Shown one piece after another: positions 1-27,929 of a stretch of 27,929 nt of DNA (its first letter is position 1; every line of letters begins with the position of its first letter). Both the position numbers and the translations under genes were made by a program. Where the stretch lies: positions 1 to 27,929 of the IMG/VR virus record IMGVR_UViG_3300012920_000197. One strand, given 5' to 3'. The stretch comes from a virus. The notes under the pieces are model-generated. The model searched no databases. It had not been told where the DNA came from and was given only the letters and a program-made list of their open reading frames with translations.

Positions 1-123
1 CTTAGCATCGTTTGGCATTTTGTTCACAGCTCCACCTGCGACATTTGACCTATCCTCAAACTGTGAGTTGATGATCTTGAGAAGAGCAATGATGATTCCA
101 TCAGGAACATCAGTTGCACCAAA
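1..123. repeat. Terminal direct repeat, left copy
   Basis: The first 123 bases are identical to 27807-27929. The repeat lies inside the connector gene and the reading frame continues across the join. It therefore marks the two ends of one circular or terminally redundant molecule, probably an assembler overlap of a circularly permuted genome, and not an attachment site. Confidence 0.95.
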
Positions 124-552
124 CCCAGTGGTGATGTCAACTTCAAGACCTTGATATCTGACTGGGAACTTTAGATGAAGAACCTTCTGATCCTGACCAG
201 TCAAGAAGAACTCGTCAGATGCAAGTGCAGTCTCTACTCCAAGAACCTTTGTTCTCACAGCATCAACTGATACATGTGGTGGGAATGGCAGAAGGATTGA
301 GCTTGCGTGTTGATCATATTCAAGAGTCATTGTTCTTCTCTTGATCATTGATCCAGTGAACCTCTCTGCAATGTCAATGCTCATGTTGATCAATCTTCCA
401 ATCAGTGTGTCATCATCACTGTGATCAATACCCATGAAACTCTTTGCTTCTGAGAGAGCAACAATGGTGTCACTTGATGTTGTGTTGATTGTTTTGCTAT
501 ATCCTAGAGATTGCCCTTGATTGTTGGTTGCTAGTGAAGTGTATGTTTCCAT
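1..552 (-). CDS. Head-tail connector, HK97 gp6 / phiE125 gp8-like (first 184 codons; continues at 27806)
   Basis: This is the adaptor ring protein that docks under the portal and joins the head to the tail. The ATG is at 552; an in-frame TGA lies six codons upstream, so no longer start is possible. The early helical segment LSEAKSFMGID followed by HSDDDTLIGRLI and an AERFTG motif is the usual N-terminal signature of the gp6-like family. The window edge cuts the gene after codon 184. The last 11 codons and the TGA lie at 27806-27771, giving 195 aa, the usual size. It is the first gene of the head-tail and tail operon, directly after the accessory cassette. It has no strong Shine-Dalgarno. Assignment is by motif reading only. 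Confidence 0.85.
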   Translation of the reverse strand, partial: METYTSLATNNQGQSLGYSKTINTTSSDTIVALSEAKSFMGIDHSDDDTLIGRLINMSIDIAERFTGSMIKRRTMTLEYDQHASSILLPFPPHVSVDAVRTKVLGVETALASDEFFLTGQDQKVLHLKFPVRYQGLEVDITTGFGATDVPDGIIIALLKIINSQFEDRSNVAGGAVNKMPNDAK

Positions 553-628: not shown

Positions 629-659
629 AAAAAAAAGACAACCTGATCTCCTCAGGTTG
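629..659 (-). terminator. Intrinsic terminator ending the accessory cassette
   Basis: Read on the minus strand, an 8-bp perfect stem CAACCTGA/TCAGGTTG with a 5-nt loop (659-639) is followed by TC and eight Us (636-629). It lies 40 nt after the stop of the last cassette gene at 699 and separates the cassette from the connector gene. Confidence 0.9.
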
Positions 660-698
660 CCTCACAAGTTTACATCTACCAATTATTCTGTTTTTCTA

Positions 699-884
699 CT
701 ATTCATGAATATCATCTTTTTCAGGATCTTCTGCAAGTTGCTGTTGATCCTCATTCTCAAGCTCTGACTTGAGTTCTCTGAGCTTGAACTCTCTTCTGTC
801 TTGTTCTATCCTGAGCCTCTCTTCTTCCTCAAAGCTTGAGCCAATTCCAAGACCATAGTTCCATCTGTCACTTGCTTTCATCAT
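699..884 (-). CDS. Small charged coiled-coil protein, unknown function
   Basis: This is a 61-aa protein that I do not recognise. After a short aromatic N-terminus (DRWNYGLGIG) it becomes a highly charged helix rich in Glu, Arg and Gln (EEEERLRIEQDRREFKLREL), likely a coiled coil, and it ends in an acidic tail. The start ATG at 884 overlaps the TGA of the preceding gene by four bases (ATGA), so translation is probably coupled; a second ATG follows immediately. It is the last gene of the four-gene cassette between capsid and connector and is followed by an intrinsic terminator. There are no catalytic or membrane features. Confidence 0.7.
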   Translation of the reverse strand: MMKASDRWNYGLGIGSSFEEEERLRIEQDRREFKLRELKSELENEDQQQLAEDPEKDDIHE

Positions 885-1153
885 TCAGCTCCTTGTTGAT
901 GGTTTCTTTTGAGCACCCATGAACGATCTCTGTTGATCACTTCTTTTCTTTCAGTCCACTTGAAGTTGTCATTGCCATAGAGCTTTTTGATGTCATAGCT
1001 GACTCTGTGAGTGAAGCCATCCTTTGACTCTCCTTCAAGACTGAAGTATGTGAAGTTCTGTCTTGCATGTGGGAACTTGATGTCCATCTCATAAGTTGTG
1101 ATCTGTTCATCTCTCCAGTCTTTGCATGTGATTGTTGAAAGTATTCCAGTCAT
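881..1153 (-). CDS. Unknown 90-aa cassette protein
   Basis: This is a 90-aa soluble protein of unknown function. It has alternating hydrophobic and charged residues with many aromatics (FPHARQNFTYFSLEG, FTHRVSYDIKKLYG), which suggests a small beta-rich fold. There is no recognisable motif, signal or membrane segment. The ATG at 1153 is preceded by the box ACGGAGAA, a Shine-Dalgarno shared with the two upstream cassette genes. A UUCG-capped hairpin lies just upstream of that box. Its end overlaps the next gene by four bases. The shared leader sequences mark it as part of a co-regulated set. Confidence 0.7.
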   Translation of the reverse strand: MTGILSTITCKDWRDEQITTYEMDIKFPHARQNFTYFSLEGESKDGFTHRVSYDIKKLYGNDNFKWTERKEVINRDRSWVLKRNHQQGAE

Positions 1154-1209
1154 TTGTTTTCTCCGTTGTGGGATCCCGAAGGATCCCGTTTTGATTATTT
1201 GTTTTTTTT
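1151..1209 (-). repeat. Intergenic element copy A with UUCG-capped hairpin and RBS box
   Basis: This segment of about 59 nt is nearly identical to 1567-1626. On the minus strand it comprises the last codons and TAA of the upstream gene (AAAAACAAATAA), an A-rich spacer, a perfect 7-bp hairpin GGGATCC-UUCG-GGATCCC (1187-1170), then ACGGAGAA and the next ATG. The C(UUCG)G loop is an exceptionally stable RNA tetraloop. No U-tract follows it in the gene direction, so it is probably a processing, stability or translation-insulating hairpin, not a terminator of this operon. Confidence 0.85.
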
Positions 1210-1569
1210 GTATCCAATTCTGCTTGCAAACATGTGTGACTGTCTGTCAAGCCTAGCATCTTGTAATTTTACATGATATGAATAGTCATCCATGTAGCTT
1301 TCTGTCTCTTCAAGTTGTTCTTGTAATTCTTTAATTTTGTTTTTTAAAGTATCAACATCTTCTTGATCCCTAAGGATGTCAAGCACTGTTAAGTAAGCCT
1401 CTGCTCGACCTACATAGCGATGATACTCTTTGACTTCAACAAATGAGTCATGATCATTAAAAACATCAATCTCTTCACTACCTATGTCATTGATTTTGTC
1501 AATGCTGTTGAATTGTGATTTTTGTGCATCTGCTGATAGTGCTTCAATTCTTTCTTTCATTGTTTTCAT
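1195..1569 (-). CDS. Coiled-coil cassette protein, unknown function
   Basis: This is a 124-aa acidic protein that I do not recognise. The central segment from about residue 65 to 95 (DQEDVDTLKNKIKELQEQLE) is a clear heptad-type coiled coil. The N-terminal third is helical and polar, and the C-terminus is basic (RIGYKKNK). The ATG at 1569 follows the cassette Shine-Dalgarno ACGGAGAAC, and copy B of the UUCG-hairpin element lies immediately before it. The gene end is built into copy A of the same element, which shows that the cassette grew by duplication of a gene-junction unit. It is likely a structural or scaffold-like oligomer; no enzymatic motif is visible. Confidence 0.75.
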   Translation of the reverse strand: MKTMKERIEALSADAQKSQFNSIDKINDIGSEEIDVFNDHDSFVEVKEYHRYVGRAEAYLTVLDILRDQEDVDTLKNKIKELQEQLEETESYMDDYSYHVKLQDARLDRQSHMFASRIGYKKNK

Positions 1570-1626
1570 TTTGTTCTCCGTTTTAGTGGGATCCCGAAGG
1601 ATCCCTTTTTAATTATTTGTTTTTTT
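1567..1626 (-). repeat. Intergenic element copy B with UUCG-capped hairpin and RBS box
   Basis: This is the second copy of the 59-60 nt junction element: AAAAACAAATAA, A-tract, hairpin GGGATCC-UUCG-GGATCCC (1605-1588), ACGGAGAAC, ATG. On the opposite strand the hairpin is followed directly by TTTTT (1606-1610). It could therefore stop antisense transcription while acting as an mRNA hairpin in the gene direction. A third partial copy (ACAACGGAGAACAAAATG) precedes the gene starting at 1825. Confidence 0.85.
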
Positions 1627-1825
1627 CTAGTTCTTTGATTGCCTCTATTGCCTCACGTTTTGTGCCAAAGACCCATGCCCAAGCATTCTCTGTTCTCTTC
1701 TCATTCTCCCATACATCCCATCCGAAAGGTTGCAAGGTTTCACTGTGTAATAATTTTCCGACAATGAATGTTCCTGCTTTGCAAACTACTTTGTATTCTC
1801 CTGCTTCAATTTTTGATACTTTCAT
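1613..1825 (-). CDS. Small aromatic-rich cassette protein, unknown function
   Basis: This is a 70-aa protein and the first gene of the cassette. It reads as a short beta-rich half (KVSKIEAGEYKVVCKAGTF, then GWDVWENE) followed by a C-terminal helix (TKREAIEAIKELEKNK). The pattern is like many small phage DNA- or protein-binding modules, but I do not recognise the family. The ATG at 1825 has the box ACGGAGAAC and an mRNA leader of roughly 35 nt from the promoter at 1868-1897. Its last codons (AAA AAC AAA TAA) form the beginning of repeat copy B. Being promoter-proximal beneath a palindromic operator, it could be autoregulatory; that is inference. Confidence 0.7.
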   Translation of the reverse strand: MKVSKIEAGEYKVVCKAGTFIVGKLLHSETLQPFGWDVWENEKRTENAWAWVFGTKREAIEAIKELEKNK

Positions 1826-1867
1826 TTTGTTCTCCGTTGTTGTGTTTGTGTTTCTTAATTCAAGAGT

Positions 1868-1897
1868 AATATATGAAATATTTCATATACCAGTCAA
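1868..1897 (-). promoter_or_regulatory. Sigma70-like promoter of the accessory cassette
   Basis: On the minus strand TTGACT (1897-1892) and TATATT (1873-1868) are separated by 18 bp, a good bacterial promoter pair. It lies downstream of the capsid terminator and about 40 nt before the first cassette ATG. The spacer and most of the -10 box are occupied by a perfect palindrome, so it should be repressible. Confidence 0.7.
1870..1889. promoter_or_regulatory. Perfect 20-bp palindromic operator within the promoter
   Basis: The sequence TATATGAAATATTTCATATA is a perfect inverted repeat centred between the -35 and -10 elements. A dimeric repressor bound there would block RNA polymerase. The only clear DNA-binding regulator in this genome is the small HTH protein at 14181-14366; otherwise a host or prophage repressor may act on the site. 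Confidence 0.7.
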
Positions 1898-2052: not shown

Positions 2053-3279
2053 TTAGCTAGCACCTGCTGTAAGTGCATCGGAGAAGTCTCCAAATATGAA
2101 TGCTCCTGATCGGTAAATTGCCAAAGCAATTCTTTCAGAAGCAACTACTGTCACAACACCTTTGACAACGTTGTCTTGGTCTTGCTCATAGAATCTGATG
2201 CTTGACTGCTGACGATCAAACAACTGTGCTCCAAGATTGAAGTCTCCAACAAGGAACTTGTCAGTTGTCATCGCTGTGTTTGCGATCAATGGAACACCTG
2301 CGATCATTGGCAGTGCTCCACCAAATCTTGCAGTCTCAGGAATGACGTATCTGCCTTGAGCATCTTTGATCAGCATCAAGTTGTAGAAGTCATCAGGATG
2401 AACCATGATTGCATTTGCTGTGTACTCTTGCTGTCTTACTTGAGCAACTGCCTTTGTAAGGATGTCAAATCTGTTGACATTGCTGTCTGCAAGCTCATCA
2501 GTGTATGCATTTGCATCCTCAGTCAATCCAGTCAATGATGGTGAGTCAGATCCAAAGAGAAGGATGTTGTCCTCTTTTGCTCGGATTTTGCTTGGAAGTC
2601 TTGTGGTTAGATAAGAAGTCAAGCCTTGAACATCTTCCAACATCTCATTGGATAGACGTACAAAAGATGCAATTGTTCTGACTGGCGCATCTGATACAGC
2701 CAAGTCAAAAGTGTACTCACCTGCATTACCACCTTCTGCTTTCATAGCAGTTCCATCTGATACGCTTGACTCAACAACATAACGGATCAAGTCAGACTGA
2801 GTTGTTCCAGTTGGTAAGAATTGACGTACATGTACGTTTCTGCTTGGTGTGAAAACAATGCCACCTTGATAGTCTGGTGGTACGACATTCAATGAAGTTG
2901 TTGAATCAACAAAGTCATTTGCTCCAGTCAATGGAGTTCCAACCTTAGTTGAAAACATTGGTACATTGAAAGAGATGCCTTGCTTTGACCGTACTTGATC
3001 AGCAAAGCCATCAGCTCCTTTGATCTGAGTGACCATTGAAGACACCCAGTTCTCATTTTGTTGAGCAGATCCTGATCTCTTAGAAGAGATCTCAAGATTG
3101 TCTGCTTGCTCTTGCAGTTTGTTGTACTTCTCAACAAGACCTGCGATTTCATTTGTTTTTAGATTGTCCAATTCTTGATTCAAGTTGTCCTTTTGTGATT
3201 CAAGAGCTTTCTCGATATTGCTATCAATATGATCTCCAAGAACCTGCAACTTCTGATCAAGTATTTCTGTAATGTTCAT
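2053..3279 (-). CDS. Major capsid protein, HK97 gp5-like
   Basis: This 408-aa protein forms the icosahedral shell. Residues 1 to about 70 are a Gln/Glu/Lys-rich coiled coil (QKLQVLGDHIDSNIEKALES), the delta scaffolding domain normally removed by the prohead protease. The HK97 fold follows. It includes a VPPDYQGGIVFTPSR segment, a VRTIASFVRLSNEMLEDV stretch typical of the spine/E-loop region, and a C-terminal ERIALAIYRSGAFIFGDF segment. Cleavage is expected somewhere near residues 90-115. The protease gene lies immediately upstream; its stop overlaps the Shine-Dalgarno region AAGGAATAAAATG. An intrinsic terminator follows. Length and order match HK97-type phages. Confidence 0.93.
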   Translation of the reverse strand: MNITEILDQKLQVLGDHIDSNIEKALESQKDNLNQELDNLKTNEIAGLVEKYNKLQEQADNLEISSKRSGSAQQNENWVSSMVTQIKGADGFADQVRSKQGISFNVPMFSTKVGTPLTGANDFVDSTTSLNVVPPDYQGGIVFTPSRNVHVRQFLPTGTTQSDLIRYVVESSVSDGTAMKAEGGNAGEYTFDLAVSDAPVRTIASFVRLSNEMLEDVQGLTSYLTTRLPSKIRAKEDNILLFGSDSPSLTGLTEDANAYTDELADSNVNRFDILTKAVAQVRQQEYTANAIMVHPDDFYNLMLIKDAQGRYVIPETARFGGALPMIAGVPLIANTAMTTDKFLVGDFNLGAQLFDRQQSSIRFYEQDQDNVVKGVVTVVASERIALAIYRSGAFIFGDFSDALTAGAS

Positions 3280-12053: not shown

Positions 12054-12325
12054 AGTTTTATGTCGGTTTTTAGTGCATGTTTAAATGATGTCAGTTCTTT
12101 GTGAATCGCCCACTTCAATGTTTGAAGATTAGGCTGTTTCTTGTATGTCATACCTGAGAGAGTTGGGAACCATTCACCATAGGTGACTGGATCCATTTTT
12201 ATCTCACTTAGTGCATTGAGCTTCTCAGATAGAATCATTGTTGAGTCAATGATTTGCAATGCTTGGATCATTTGATCACAAGTTTCTTCATAATATCTTC
12301 TTTCTGCTTTGGTCAGCTTAGGCAT
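12050..12325 (-). CDS. Unknown 91-aa early protein
   Basis: I took the ATG at 12325, which overlaps the ninG stop by 8 bp, instead of the TTG at 12334. The protein is helical and soluble: LTKAERRYYEETCDQMIQAL begins a likely helical pair, and a central segment DPVTYGEWFPTLSGM is followed by a further helix. No catalytic motif is seen. Its neighbours are NinG and the SSB-like protein, so a recombination or replication accessory role is plausible, but the function is unknown. Confidence 0.68.
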   Translation of the reverse strand: MPKLTKAERRYYEETCDQMIQALQIIDSTMILSEKLNALSEIKMDPVTYGEWFPTLSGMTYKKQPNLQTLKWAIHKELTSFKHALKTDIKL

Positions 12326-12746
12326 CAATGTCAATGTTTTTTGATTTTAGCATCTCAGTATAATTGCTTTTATAAAGTCTTGCAATCTCCATCAGATCAT
12401 TTTTTGTGTATTTTTTGATCTTTTGAGACTTTTTGTACAATCTGTCCTTTGTTCCCTTACCATAAAGCAGATCTACTTCTTTGCTATACAAGAACTGTTC
12501 ACCTGCATTGTACTTGTTGCATTTTTGACATTGAGCATGAACATTCTTCTCATCAAATCTTGTTGACATGTGTCTCCTTGAGATGAAGTGCCCTGCATCC
12601 ATCTCTTTGAAGTGTTTCCTTGCCTCACAAGTCACACATTTAGCTTCTCCCGTACAATCAGCATCTCTGAGCCTTATATATCTACTGAACCATTGATCGG
12701 CAGTCTTGAGAGCAGTTTTGAAGTTTTTGCTTTTTGTCAACCCCAT
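12318..12746 (-). CDS. ninG: NinG/Rap recombination endonuclease
   Basis: This is a 142-aa protein of the lambda NinG (Rap) type, a structure-specific nuclease acting on branched recombination intermediates. The Cys-rich start CVTCEARK, then DAGHFISRRHMSTRFDEKNV and HAQCQKCNKYNAGE, form the diagnostic zinc/HNH-like core (CxxC, His, CxxC). The C-terminus is a basic helical region. It lies with an ERF annealing protein and an SSB-like protein, forming an annealing-based recombination set. It overlaps its neighbours by 8-10 bp. Confidence 0.88.
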   Translation of the reverse strand: MGLTKSKNFKTALKTADQWFSRYIRLRDADCTGEAKCVTCEARKHFKEMDAGHFISRRHMSTRFDEKNVHAQCQKCNKYNAGEQFLYSKEVDLLYGKGTKDRLYKKSQKIKKYTKNDLMEIARLYKSNYTEMLKSKNIDIDA

Positions 12747-13323: not shown

Positions 13324-13788
13324 TTAATTGAAAAATGGATCAGGTGATGAGCCATTCATGATGACTTCACTGTTGTTTGTCTCAAGAGCATACTCCTCTG
13401 TGTCAGCATCTTTGACATCATCAAGCAAGAACATTCCTGCAAGAGCATACTTTCTTGCATAGCTTGAAACTGTGCCAGTGAGCTGTGGATCATCCATTCC
13501 CTTTTTTGACTCAGGTTCTCTTGCATATCCTGCAACTTTGATCTGTCCATCTTCAAATCTGTTGGTCAATACTGCCTCAGCTTTGTAGTATATTCTGTCA
13601 CCAACTGTGATGATGTTATCTTCAAAGTGCAGTGAGCATCCACTCTTGTCAAGCACTAGCTTGAGTGCCTCAAATATATCTTCAAGATTTCTGTACTTAT
13701 AATTGGCAAACTTGTTGAGTCTGTTCTTTGGAACTCTCAGCTCAGTTTGAATTTTTGTCAATAGTTGTTCAATTTTTATTTCACTCAT
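13324..13788 (-). CDS. erf: ERF-family single-strand annealing protein
   Basis: The protein is 154 aa from the ATG at 13788, which overlaps the preceding gene by 8 bp. The longer frame to 13872 would overlap by 92 bp and is unlikely. The ERF core is evident: FANYKYRNLEDIFEALKLVL near the start, and DPQLTGTVSSYARKYALAGM with LLDDVKDADTE near the end. ERF proteins anneal complementary ssDNA in phage recombination and genome circularisation, which suits a permuted genome. The short acidic/aromatic tail (DPFF) may mediate partner contact. It is followed by a hairpin and the putative nuclease gene. Confidence 0.88.
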   Translation of the reverse strand: MSEIKIEQLLTKIQTELRVPKNRLNKFANYKYRNLEDIFEALKLVLDKSGCSLHFEDNIITVGDRIYYKAEAVLTNRFEDGQIKVAGYAREPESKKGMDDPQLTGTVSSYARKYALAGMFLLDDVKDADTEEYALETNNSEVIMNGSSPDPFFN

Positions 13789-14191
13789 TCCATTCAAGTT
13801 TAAGATAGGTTGTTGTTTTAGTGTTTGCAGGTGAAACAATTTCACCATACTCATCAAAGAAGTCTCTGCCATTTTTTGCAGAAAAGCTTGCTTGCTTCAT
13901 CAAGTCTTGTCTGTTTTTGATGGCTAGTTTGTGCCTCTCAAGAGTGTCATCATTTGGATAAGTGTATCTTGTCTGTGAGACAACTGATACTTTGTACCCA
14001 TTCTGACTCCAGTCTTTTTCAGCAATCATTTGTCTTTTGTCAAGAGCTAGATCTGAGATTTCTTTTCTATGCTCTGCAACAATTTTCTCAAGCTCGTAGA
14101 GCCTGATGTATGCACTAATAGGATCAATCAATGCTTCCTTTGCATCCTCAGTCATTTTTGATACTTGATCAATTATTTCCTTAGAGTTCAT
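13781..14191 (-). CDS. Unknown helical protein upstream of erf
   Basis: This is a 136-aa protein with a long N-terminal helical part (IRLYELEKIVAEHRKEISDL, then LDKRQMIAEKDW). A beta-like segment (NGYKVSVVSQTRYTYPNDD) follows, and then a basic helical part. The arrangement resembles small phage proteins that precede recombinases, some of which modulate host nucleases, but I cannot identify the family. Overlaps of about 10 bp on both sides place it firmly in the early operon. Confidence 0.68.
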   Translation of the reverse strand: MNSKEIIDQVSKMTEDAKEALIDPISAYIRLYELEKIVAEHRKEISDLALDKRQMIAEKDWSQNGYKVSVVSQTRYTYPNDDTLERHKLAIKNRQDLMKQASFSAKNGRDFFDEYGEIVSPANTKTTTYLKLEWNE

Positions 14192-27774: not shown

Positions 27775-27929
27775 ATGCTTCTCCTTCTGTAATGATTCAA
27801 GATGCTCTTAGCATCGTTTGGCATTTTGTTCACAGCTCCACCTGCGACATTTGACCTATCCTCAAACTGTGAGTTGATGATCTTGAGAAGAGCAATGATG
27901 ATTCCATCAGGAACATCAGTTGCACCAAA
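27771..27929 (-). CDS. Head-tail connector gene, 3' end (continuation of 552-1)
   Basis: Bases 27929-27807 repeat codons already present at 123-1. Bases 27806-27771 add the codons for SILNHYRRRSI and the TGA. The end overlaps the TTG start of the adaptor gene. Read across the circular join, the connector is 195 aa. Confidence 0.85.
   Translation of the reverse strand, partial: FGATDVPDGIIIALLKIINSQFEDRSNVAGGAVNKMPNDAKSILNHYRRRSI
27807..27929. repeat. Terminal direct repeat, right copy
   Basis: This copy is identical to bases 1-123 over its full length, starting exactly at CTTAGCATCG and running to the window end. It shows the window is one full turn of the genome plus an overlap. Confidence 0.95.

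Follow-up and report, generated by a model that had tools for sequence, protein, structure and literature searches.

Genomic setting of the four-gene interval

Four small genes (g1 to g4) lie between the major capsid gene and the head-tail connector gene of the viral genome analysed here, raising the question of what this interval is and why its genes sit among those for the virion. Comparison with related phages suggests that it is a site of accessory gene exchange with its own transcription unit, of an early type and probably carrying anti-host cargo. The probability of this reading is put at roughly 0.7.

The analysed stretch (the window) comprises 27,929 nt of IMGVR_UViG_3300012920_000197, and all coordinates refer to it. 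A 123-bp direct repeat at both ends (1-123 and 27807-27929) indicates that the genome is complete, with a circular map of 27,806 bp (27.8 kb). This is probably a small marine virus that infects bacteria; the nearest capsids in cellular genomes, those of several Proteobacteria, share just 31-37% identity. In transcription order, the recognised genes encode: tail completion, tail tube, tape measure, tail fibre and M15 peptidase; an Erf annealing protein, NinG/Rap, an SSB-like protein, a DnaA-like replication protein and terminase; and portal, a MuF-type head protein, protease and capsid, followed by the cassette and the connector. The capsid gene (2053..3279, minus strand) matches phrog_10 (2.6e-53) and PF05065 (4.2e-38). 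The connector gene (1..552, minus strand), made whole across the end repeat, matches phrog_442 (3.2e-15) and PF05135 (2.1e-7). Neither an integrase nor a repressor was recognised among the window proteins searched, so a role of the cassette in lysogeny is unlikely.

The C-terminal part (5513-4740) of the MuF-like protein (6570-4735) is a domain that is replaced in near-identical relatives (compared regions L003:54-968 and L013:238-2049). The window and L013 carry a zinc-protease-like HEMIHHYD motif, with a weak Peptidase_M91 match in L013, and L003 has a different domain; the replacement is reminiscent of MuF polymorphic effectors. Separately, the tail-tip position (23577-19393) is taken by a protein of 1,394 aa that has no Pfam or PHROG match, and homology between the window and L086 is broken at two points inside this protein.

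The capsid-connector gap in related phages

A capsid search of IMG/VR gave 80 loci. In L009, L010 and L012 (61% capsid identity) only about 50 bp separate capsid from connector. As the two genes are nearly adjacent there, the insert is accessory, in agreement with the original prediction of an insertion at this point. The gap spans 880-3072 bp in the other close relatives, reaching its maximum in L005 (3,072 bp), and its cargo varies. L005, L006 and L007 carry small genes; L008 (2268-3781) and L015 (1783-2730) encode glycosyltransferases (family 25 and group 1, Pfam); and a third glycosyltransferase was recognised by eye at L005:5074-6000. L006/L007 and L005 represent two further clades with the same plan and other genes, and L005 possibly has a second promoter in the gap, as judged by eye. 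An unusual run of short AACTAACA/AACTGTCG-like repeats occupies L005:4760-5080, upstream of the glycosyltransferase gene.

The gap is uniform (330-382 bp) in 62 distant relatives with 34-43% capsid identity; a single small conserved gene occupies it in those read (L017, L018 and L022). For this gene (MYRCRKNFRY...; L017:7303-7584), no promoter of its own was recognised by eye. Such constancy, together with the location between capsid and connector, is what would be anticipated if the four genes built or decorated the virion and their variation reflected virion diversification. The gap glycosyltransferases could likewise modify virions, or else the host surface. Against a virion role, the gap in L009, L010 and L012 has no gene at all, and the terminators described next uncouple the cassette from the structural operon.

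Transcription signals of the cassette

Read along the minus strand, the capsid gene is followed by a strong terminator, the promoter with palindrome, g1 to g4, a second strong terminator and the connector gene. As originally predicted, the head operon ends at an intrinsic terminator behind the capsid gene (2029-1998, minus strand; 13-bp stem then T8; -19.0 kcal/mol), and a second one ends the cassette before the tail operon begins (663-635, minus strand; 12-bp stem then T8; -18.0 kcal/mol). In whole-window scans these have the longest stems among minus-strand terminator-like sites, and the second is retained in sister phages. The predicted new promoter ahead of the four genes is likewise recognisable as TTGACT-18-TATATT (1868..1897, minus strand). 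Its 10/12 match is not rare in itself, with 40 promoter-like sites found in the window scan against 38 expected, so the call is backed by conservation instead. Promoters of the window clade and of L006/L007 can be aligned, and they stand ahead of unrelated genes; the promoter stays constant and the cargo varies. Other contigs that carry the promoter 17-mer have none of the slot genes, g3 or g4. The promoter and terminator assigned to the cassette are sequence signals.

The promoter spacer holds the window's only perfect 18-bp palindrome, ATATGAAATATTTCATAT (1871..1888; shuffled sequence would be expected to give 0.15), which could be a repressor operator. For the operator proposed in the original prediction, the palindrome itself is present, but its inner arms ATGAAA/TTTCAT are retained in five promoters of the window clade only; they are lost in L006/L007, where the promoter is otherwise alignable.

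Terminator-like hairpins also stand behind the capsid gene in L006, L008 and L015, with a weaker one in L009. Because L008 and L015 hold other genes in the gap and L009 holds none, the capsid-side terminator is probably a property of the capsid operon that predates the insert. Its presence with other or no cargo would also suit a transcription insulator, in which terminator, promoter and terminator set the capsid:tail transcript ratio and the genes are filler. Two considerations make such an insulator very improbable. First, a strong terminator closes the cassette itself, and the cassette promoter would therefore not serve the tail operon. Second, across relatives, with near-identical pairs showing too few changes excluded, dN/dS is below 1 for g3 (0.06-0.51), g4 (0.11-0.31), B1 and B2 (range for the four, 0.06-0.51); where comparable, these genes therefore look real and under purifying selection. 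Although the tail operon begins between the second terminator and the connector, the scan criteria picked out no promoter in this stretch (634-553), and transcription of that operon past two terminators would need antitermination or another kind of promoter.

Exchange of the two promoter-proximal genes

Exchange was compared across about ten contigs, all metagenomic. Sister phages whose flanks share 97-99% identity have unrelated genes in the two promoter-proximal positions (slots 1 and 2), and retain the promoter, g3, g4 and the terminator. Slot 1 encodes 70 aa in the window (g1; 1613..1825, minus strand), 71 aa in L016, L084 and L083, 93 aa in L088 and 92 aa in L089. Slot 2 encodes an acidic protein of 124 aa in the window and L085 (g2; 1195..1569, minus strand), 130 aa in L016, L084, L083 and L088, and 89 aa in L089. 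Four alternatives in slot 1 and three in slot 2 thus occur in varied combinations, with no detectable similarity among them. The stable genes are g3 (90 aa; 881..1153, minus strand) and g4 (61 aa, strongly acidic; 699..884, minus strand). All four genes of the original prediction are therefore present at the lengths it gave. Their description as one unit fits the shared promoter and terminator; it does not fit the gene content, as g1 and g2 are swappable and g3 and g4 constant in the closest clade.

The closest pairs make the exchange most evident. Over 3,591 bp downstream, L088 and L089 share 99.1% identity, and the connector stretch compared shows no change at all, yet their genes are unrelated in both slots. 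The window and L016 are about 97% identical in the flanks, and their first two genes are again unrelated. That g1 and g2 differ between near-identical phages rules them out as essential virion machinery. The original prediction would be contradicted by the same genes recurring in all relatives as structural parts; the reverse was found. Slot genes that are unrelated despite near-identical capsid and connector genes leave a role in building or decorating the virion improbable. The stable part seems mosaic too, as judged from dS between the window and L083 (g3, 0.11; g4, 0.93; connector, 0.39). An assembly chimera is improbable: four contigs from four datasets carry slot 2 allele B, although two of these contigs have neighbouring sample numbers and identical sequence.

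Breakpoints coincide with shared gene borders

The slot borders carry two kinds of repeated element, neither of them in the original prediction, which also had not recorded the complete genome or the exchangeability of the first two genes. The first is a UUCG hairpin, GGGATCC-TTCG-GGATCCC (-13.6 kcal/mol), located at the slot 1/slot 2 border (hairpin 1; 1588..1605, minus strand) and, in identical form, at the slot 2/g3 border (hairpin 2; 1170..1187, minus strand). Both copies lack a T tract, and two identical UUCG hairpins, both at gene borders, compare with 0.02 expected by chance in the window. The second is the leader AACGGAGAACAAAATG, found in the window only at the start of g1 (1823..1838, minus strand) and the start of g2 (1567..1582, minus strand); slot 1 and slot 2 leaders are 87-89% similar over 45 bp.

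Homology breaks and resumes at these elements. Between the window and L016 it is lost at 1837, in the g1 leader, and returns at 1190, where three bases still separate it from hairpin 2; in L084 it likewise resumes at 1190. L083 and L088 have slot 2 and everything downstream in common and differ in slot 1, with homology resuming directly before hairpin 1. In L088 and L089, the two unrelated slots are separated by 68 identical bases that hold hairpin 1 and the next leader.

These breakpoints bear on whether the cassette is a plain moron, that is, an accessory operon acquired passively, whose content changes through illegitimate recombination and selection and in which hairpins and leaders are expression signals only. 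A promoter and a terminator of its own, at a point where relatives have the two flanking genes nearly adjacent, fit such an origin, as does the exchange of slot 2 in L089 without hairpin 2. Moreover, gene borders are the only harmless break sites, and in a set of about ten contigs selection against broken genes could by itself have placed the breakpoints there. Recombination at shared borders is nevertheless favoured by exchange of a single slot with promoter, hairpin and downstream genes kept, by the 68 identical bases between unrelated genes, and by the similar leaders at the two slots. Codon usage counts against a plain moron, and against an exchange site as well: z lies between -0.5 and 0.5 for g1 to g4 and within +/-2.3 for the other slot alleles. 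The cassette matches the rest of the genome in this respect and so gives no compositional sign of a recent foreign moron. Plain acquisition is thus unlikely. The moron layout originally predicted stands as regards insertion and apparent promoter and terminator signals; a foreign composition, a further mark of morons, is absent.

What the hairpin does is suggested by its occurrence elsewhere. No UUCG hairpin of at least 6 pairs was found on the scanned strand in 634 kb of other loci. L005 has an intergenic hairpin of the same form with a different stem (GGAGGCC-TTCG-GGCCTCC), and L007 a similar, weaker one (-8.7 kcal/mol) between its first two genes. The same form with different stems is as expected for an RNA structure. 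The exact window hairpin is common in unrelated viruses; 106 of the 115 copies among the matches listed, a count that includes one or two clade copies a second time, have a T-rich tail and so resemble intrinsic terminators. As the cassette copies lack a T tract, they are more likely to be terminators that are weak or have lost their function, or else to protect or process mRNA ends. Hairpin 2 is not required, since L089 lacks it. In contigs L108-L222, GGGATCCTTCGGGATCCC with a T-rich tail, often followed by TGTCTAAATA, forms a very common exact terminator that recurs in many viral contigs. Two other interpretations of the hairpin were rejected: as a clade marker, because it occurs in at least 119 stretches in viral contigs; and as part of an integron-like cassette, given the generic terminator stem of the hairpin and the lack of a recognised integrase.

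Products of the cassette

The original prediction recognised none of the four proteins. Consistent with this, neither g1 to g4 nor the other slot products matched a family of known function in PHROG, Pfam, PADLOC or NCBIfam. The sole convincing match in these collections is that of g1 to phrog_2287 (3.9e-8), a family whose function is unknown; its profile had no match in ten related records, where the control also matched nothing. Coiled-coil-type matches of g2 fell under curated cut-offs, and PADLOC and NCBIfam gave no convincing anti-CRISPR or defence-related match. Relatives of g1 were not found in IMG/VR, nor relatives of g1 and g3 in phage records, and the slot genes had no match elsewhere in 2.1 Mb of retrieved loci; g3 has a homologue in L005 (48%). 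AlphaFold models of g1 and g3 (mean pLDDT ~65) gave no significant fold match, g3 being modelled as all-beta at low confidence. The cassette products have mixed charges.

Comparison with known systems

Morons of lambdoid and other phages are expressed independently, classically from the prophage. The cassette resembles them in its apparent promoter and terminator signals between genes that are adjacent in relatives. It differs in that its codon usage is not foreign, its content is exchanged slot by slot and a lysogenic life style is not indicated. A strong promoter with a palindrome ahead of several small, fast-changing genes also recalls acr-aca operons. Unlike these, the cassette has no anti-CRISPR family match, and no helix-turn-helix family match (Aca-type regulator) was found among g1 to g4.

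The nearest described phenomenon, by analogy, is that of the promoter early stem-loops (PeSLs) of T4-like phages, reportedly described by Arbiol (2010) and Comeau (2014). PeSLs combine an early promoter with stem-loops and are linked to shuffling of small accessory genes (PMC4503421). The likeness lies in a host-like promoter of presumed early type, stem-loops and accessory gene shuffling among related phages, with small genes exchanged at a regulatory motif and homology breaking and resuming at leader and hairpin. PeSLs have a promoter for each stem-loop unit and occur in many copies in the early regions of large myoviruses. Here, one promoter would serve all genes, the hairpins lie between genes without a T tract, and the 27.8-kb genome, of siphovirus type, has just one such site, in its head-tail operon. 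The cassette may therefore work like a PeSL region; it is not classed as one, because there is not a promoter for each unit.

In cluster K mycobacteriophages, the SAS/ESAS elements combine a translation-start motif with, in about half of cases, an inverted repeat directly upstream, in 11-19 copies across the non-structural half of the genome (PMC3203893). The cassette likewise has a repeated start-site motif and an inverted repeat at non-structural genes. In contrast to SAS/ESAS, AACGGAGAANAAAATG is confined to two copies, both within the cassette, and a perfect UUCG hairpin serves as the inverted repeat.

A proposed mechanism for gene exchange and its meaning

We propose that a host-type promoter expresses two exchangeable slots and then two stable genes, and that terminators insulate it on both sides, upstream against the capsid operon and downstream against that of connector and tail. 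Slot genes would be flanked by similar short borders: the leader before the start codon and, usually, the UUCG hairpin behind. New slot genes would enter during coinfection by homologous recombination through these borders, assisted by two phage-encoded candidate drivers: the Erf-like single-strand annealing protein (13324..13872, minus strand; phrog_155, 2.2e-34) and the NinG/Rap-like junction endonuclease (12318..12746, minus strand; phrog_5034, 5.8e-28). DNA of 78% identity was recombined far more efficiently by Rad52-like phage recombinases, Erf of phage D3 among them, than by the RecA pathway, and Erf of D3 was about equal to Red-beta on such DNA (PMC3945230). As this phage encodes both proteins and such recombinases act on diverged DNA, border recombination in coinfected cells would be the simplest route. 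The hairpin, being a terminator in many unrelated viruses, could give even foreign donors 18 bp of homology. A stronger version, in which leader and hairpin are standardised Erf/Rap recombination adaptors of a dedicated two-slot system that feeds small unrelated anti-host genes, one slot per exchange, to one conserved promoter of this small HK97-type phage, is tentative and rather doubtful.

The cargo would act on the host early in infection, in takeover, anti-defence or superinfection exclusion. We infer this timing and these roles from the host-type promoter, the small size of the products, their lack of relatives and their turnover in near-identical phages; for anti-defence in particular, the odds are roughly even. 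Early action on the host would explain the turnover of the cargo between virion genes that do not change.

If this is correct, the site would readily supply small phage proteins that are selected to turn over rapidly and are perhaps directed at bacterial defences. Position alone led to seven unrelated slot genes in one clade and to others in L005-L007. The site would also provide, outside the T4 group, a natural test of the swapping of single genes through short shared borders.
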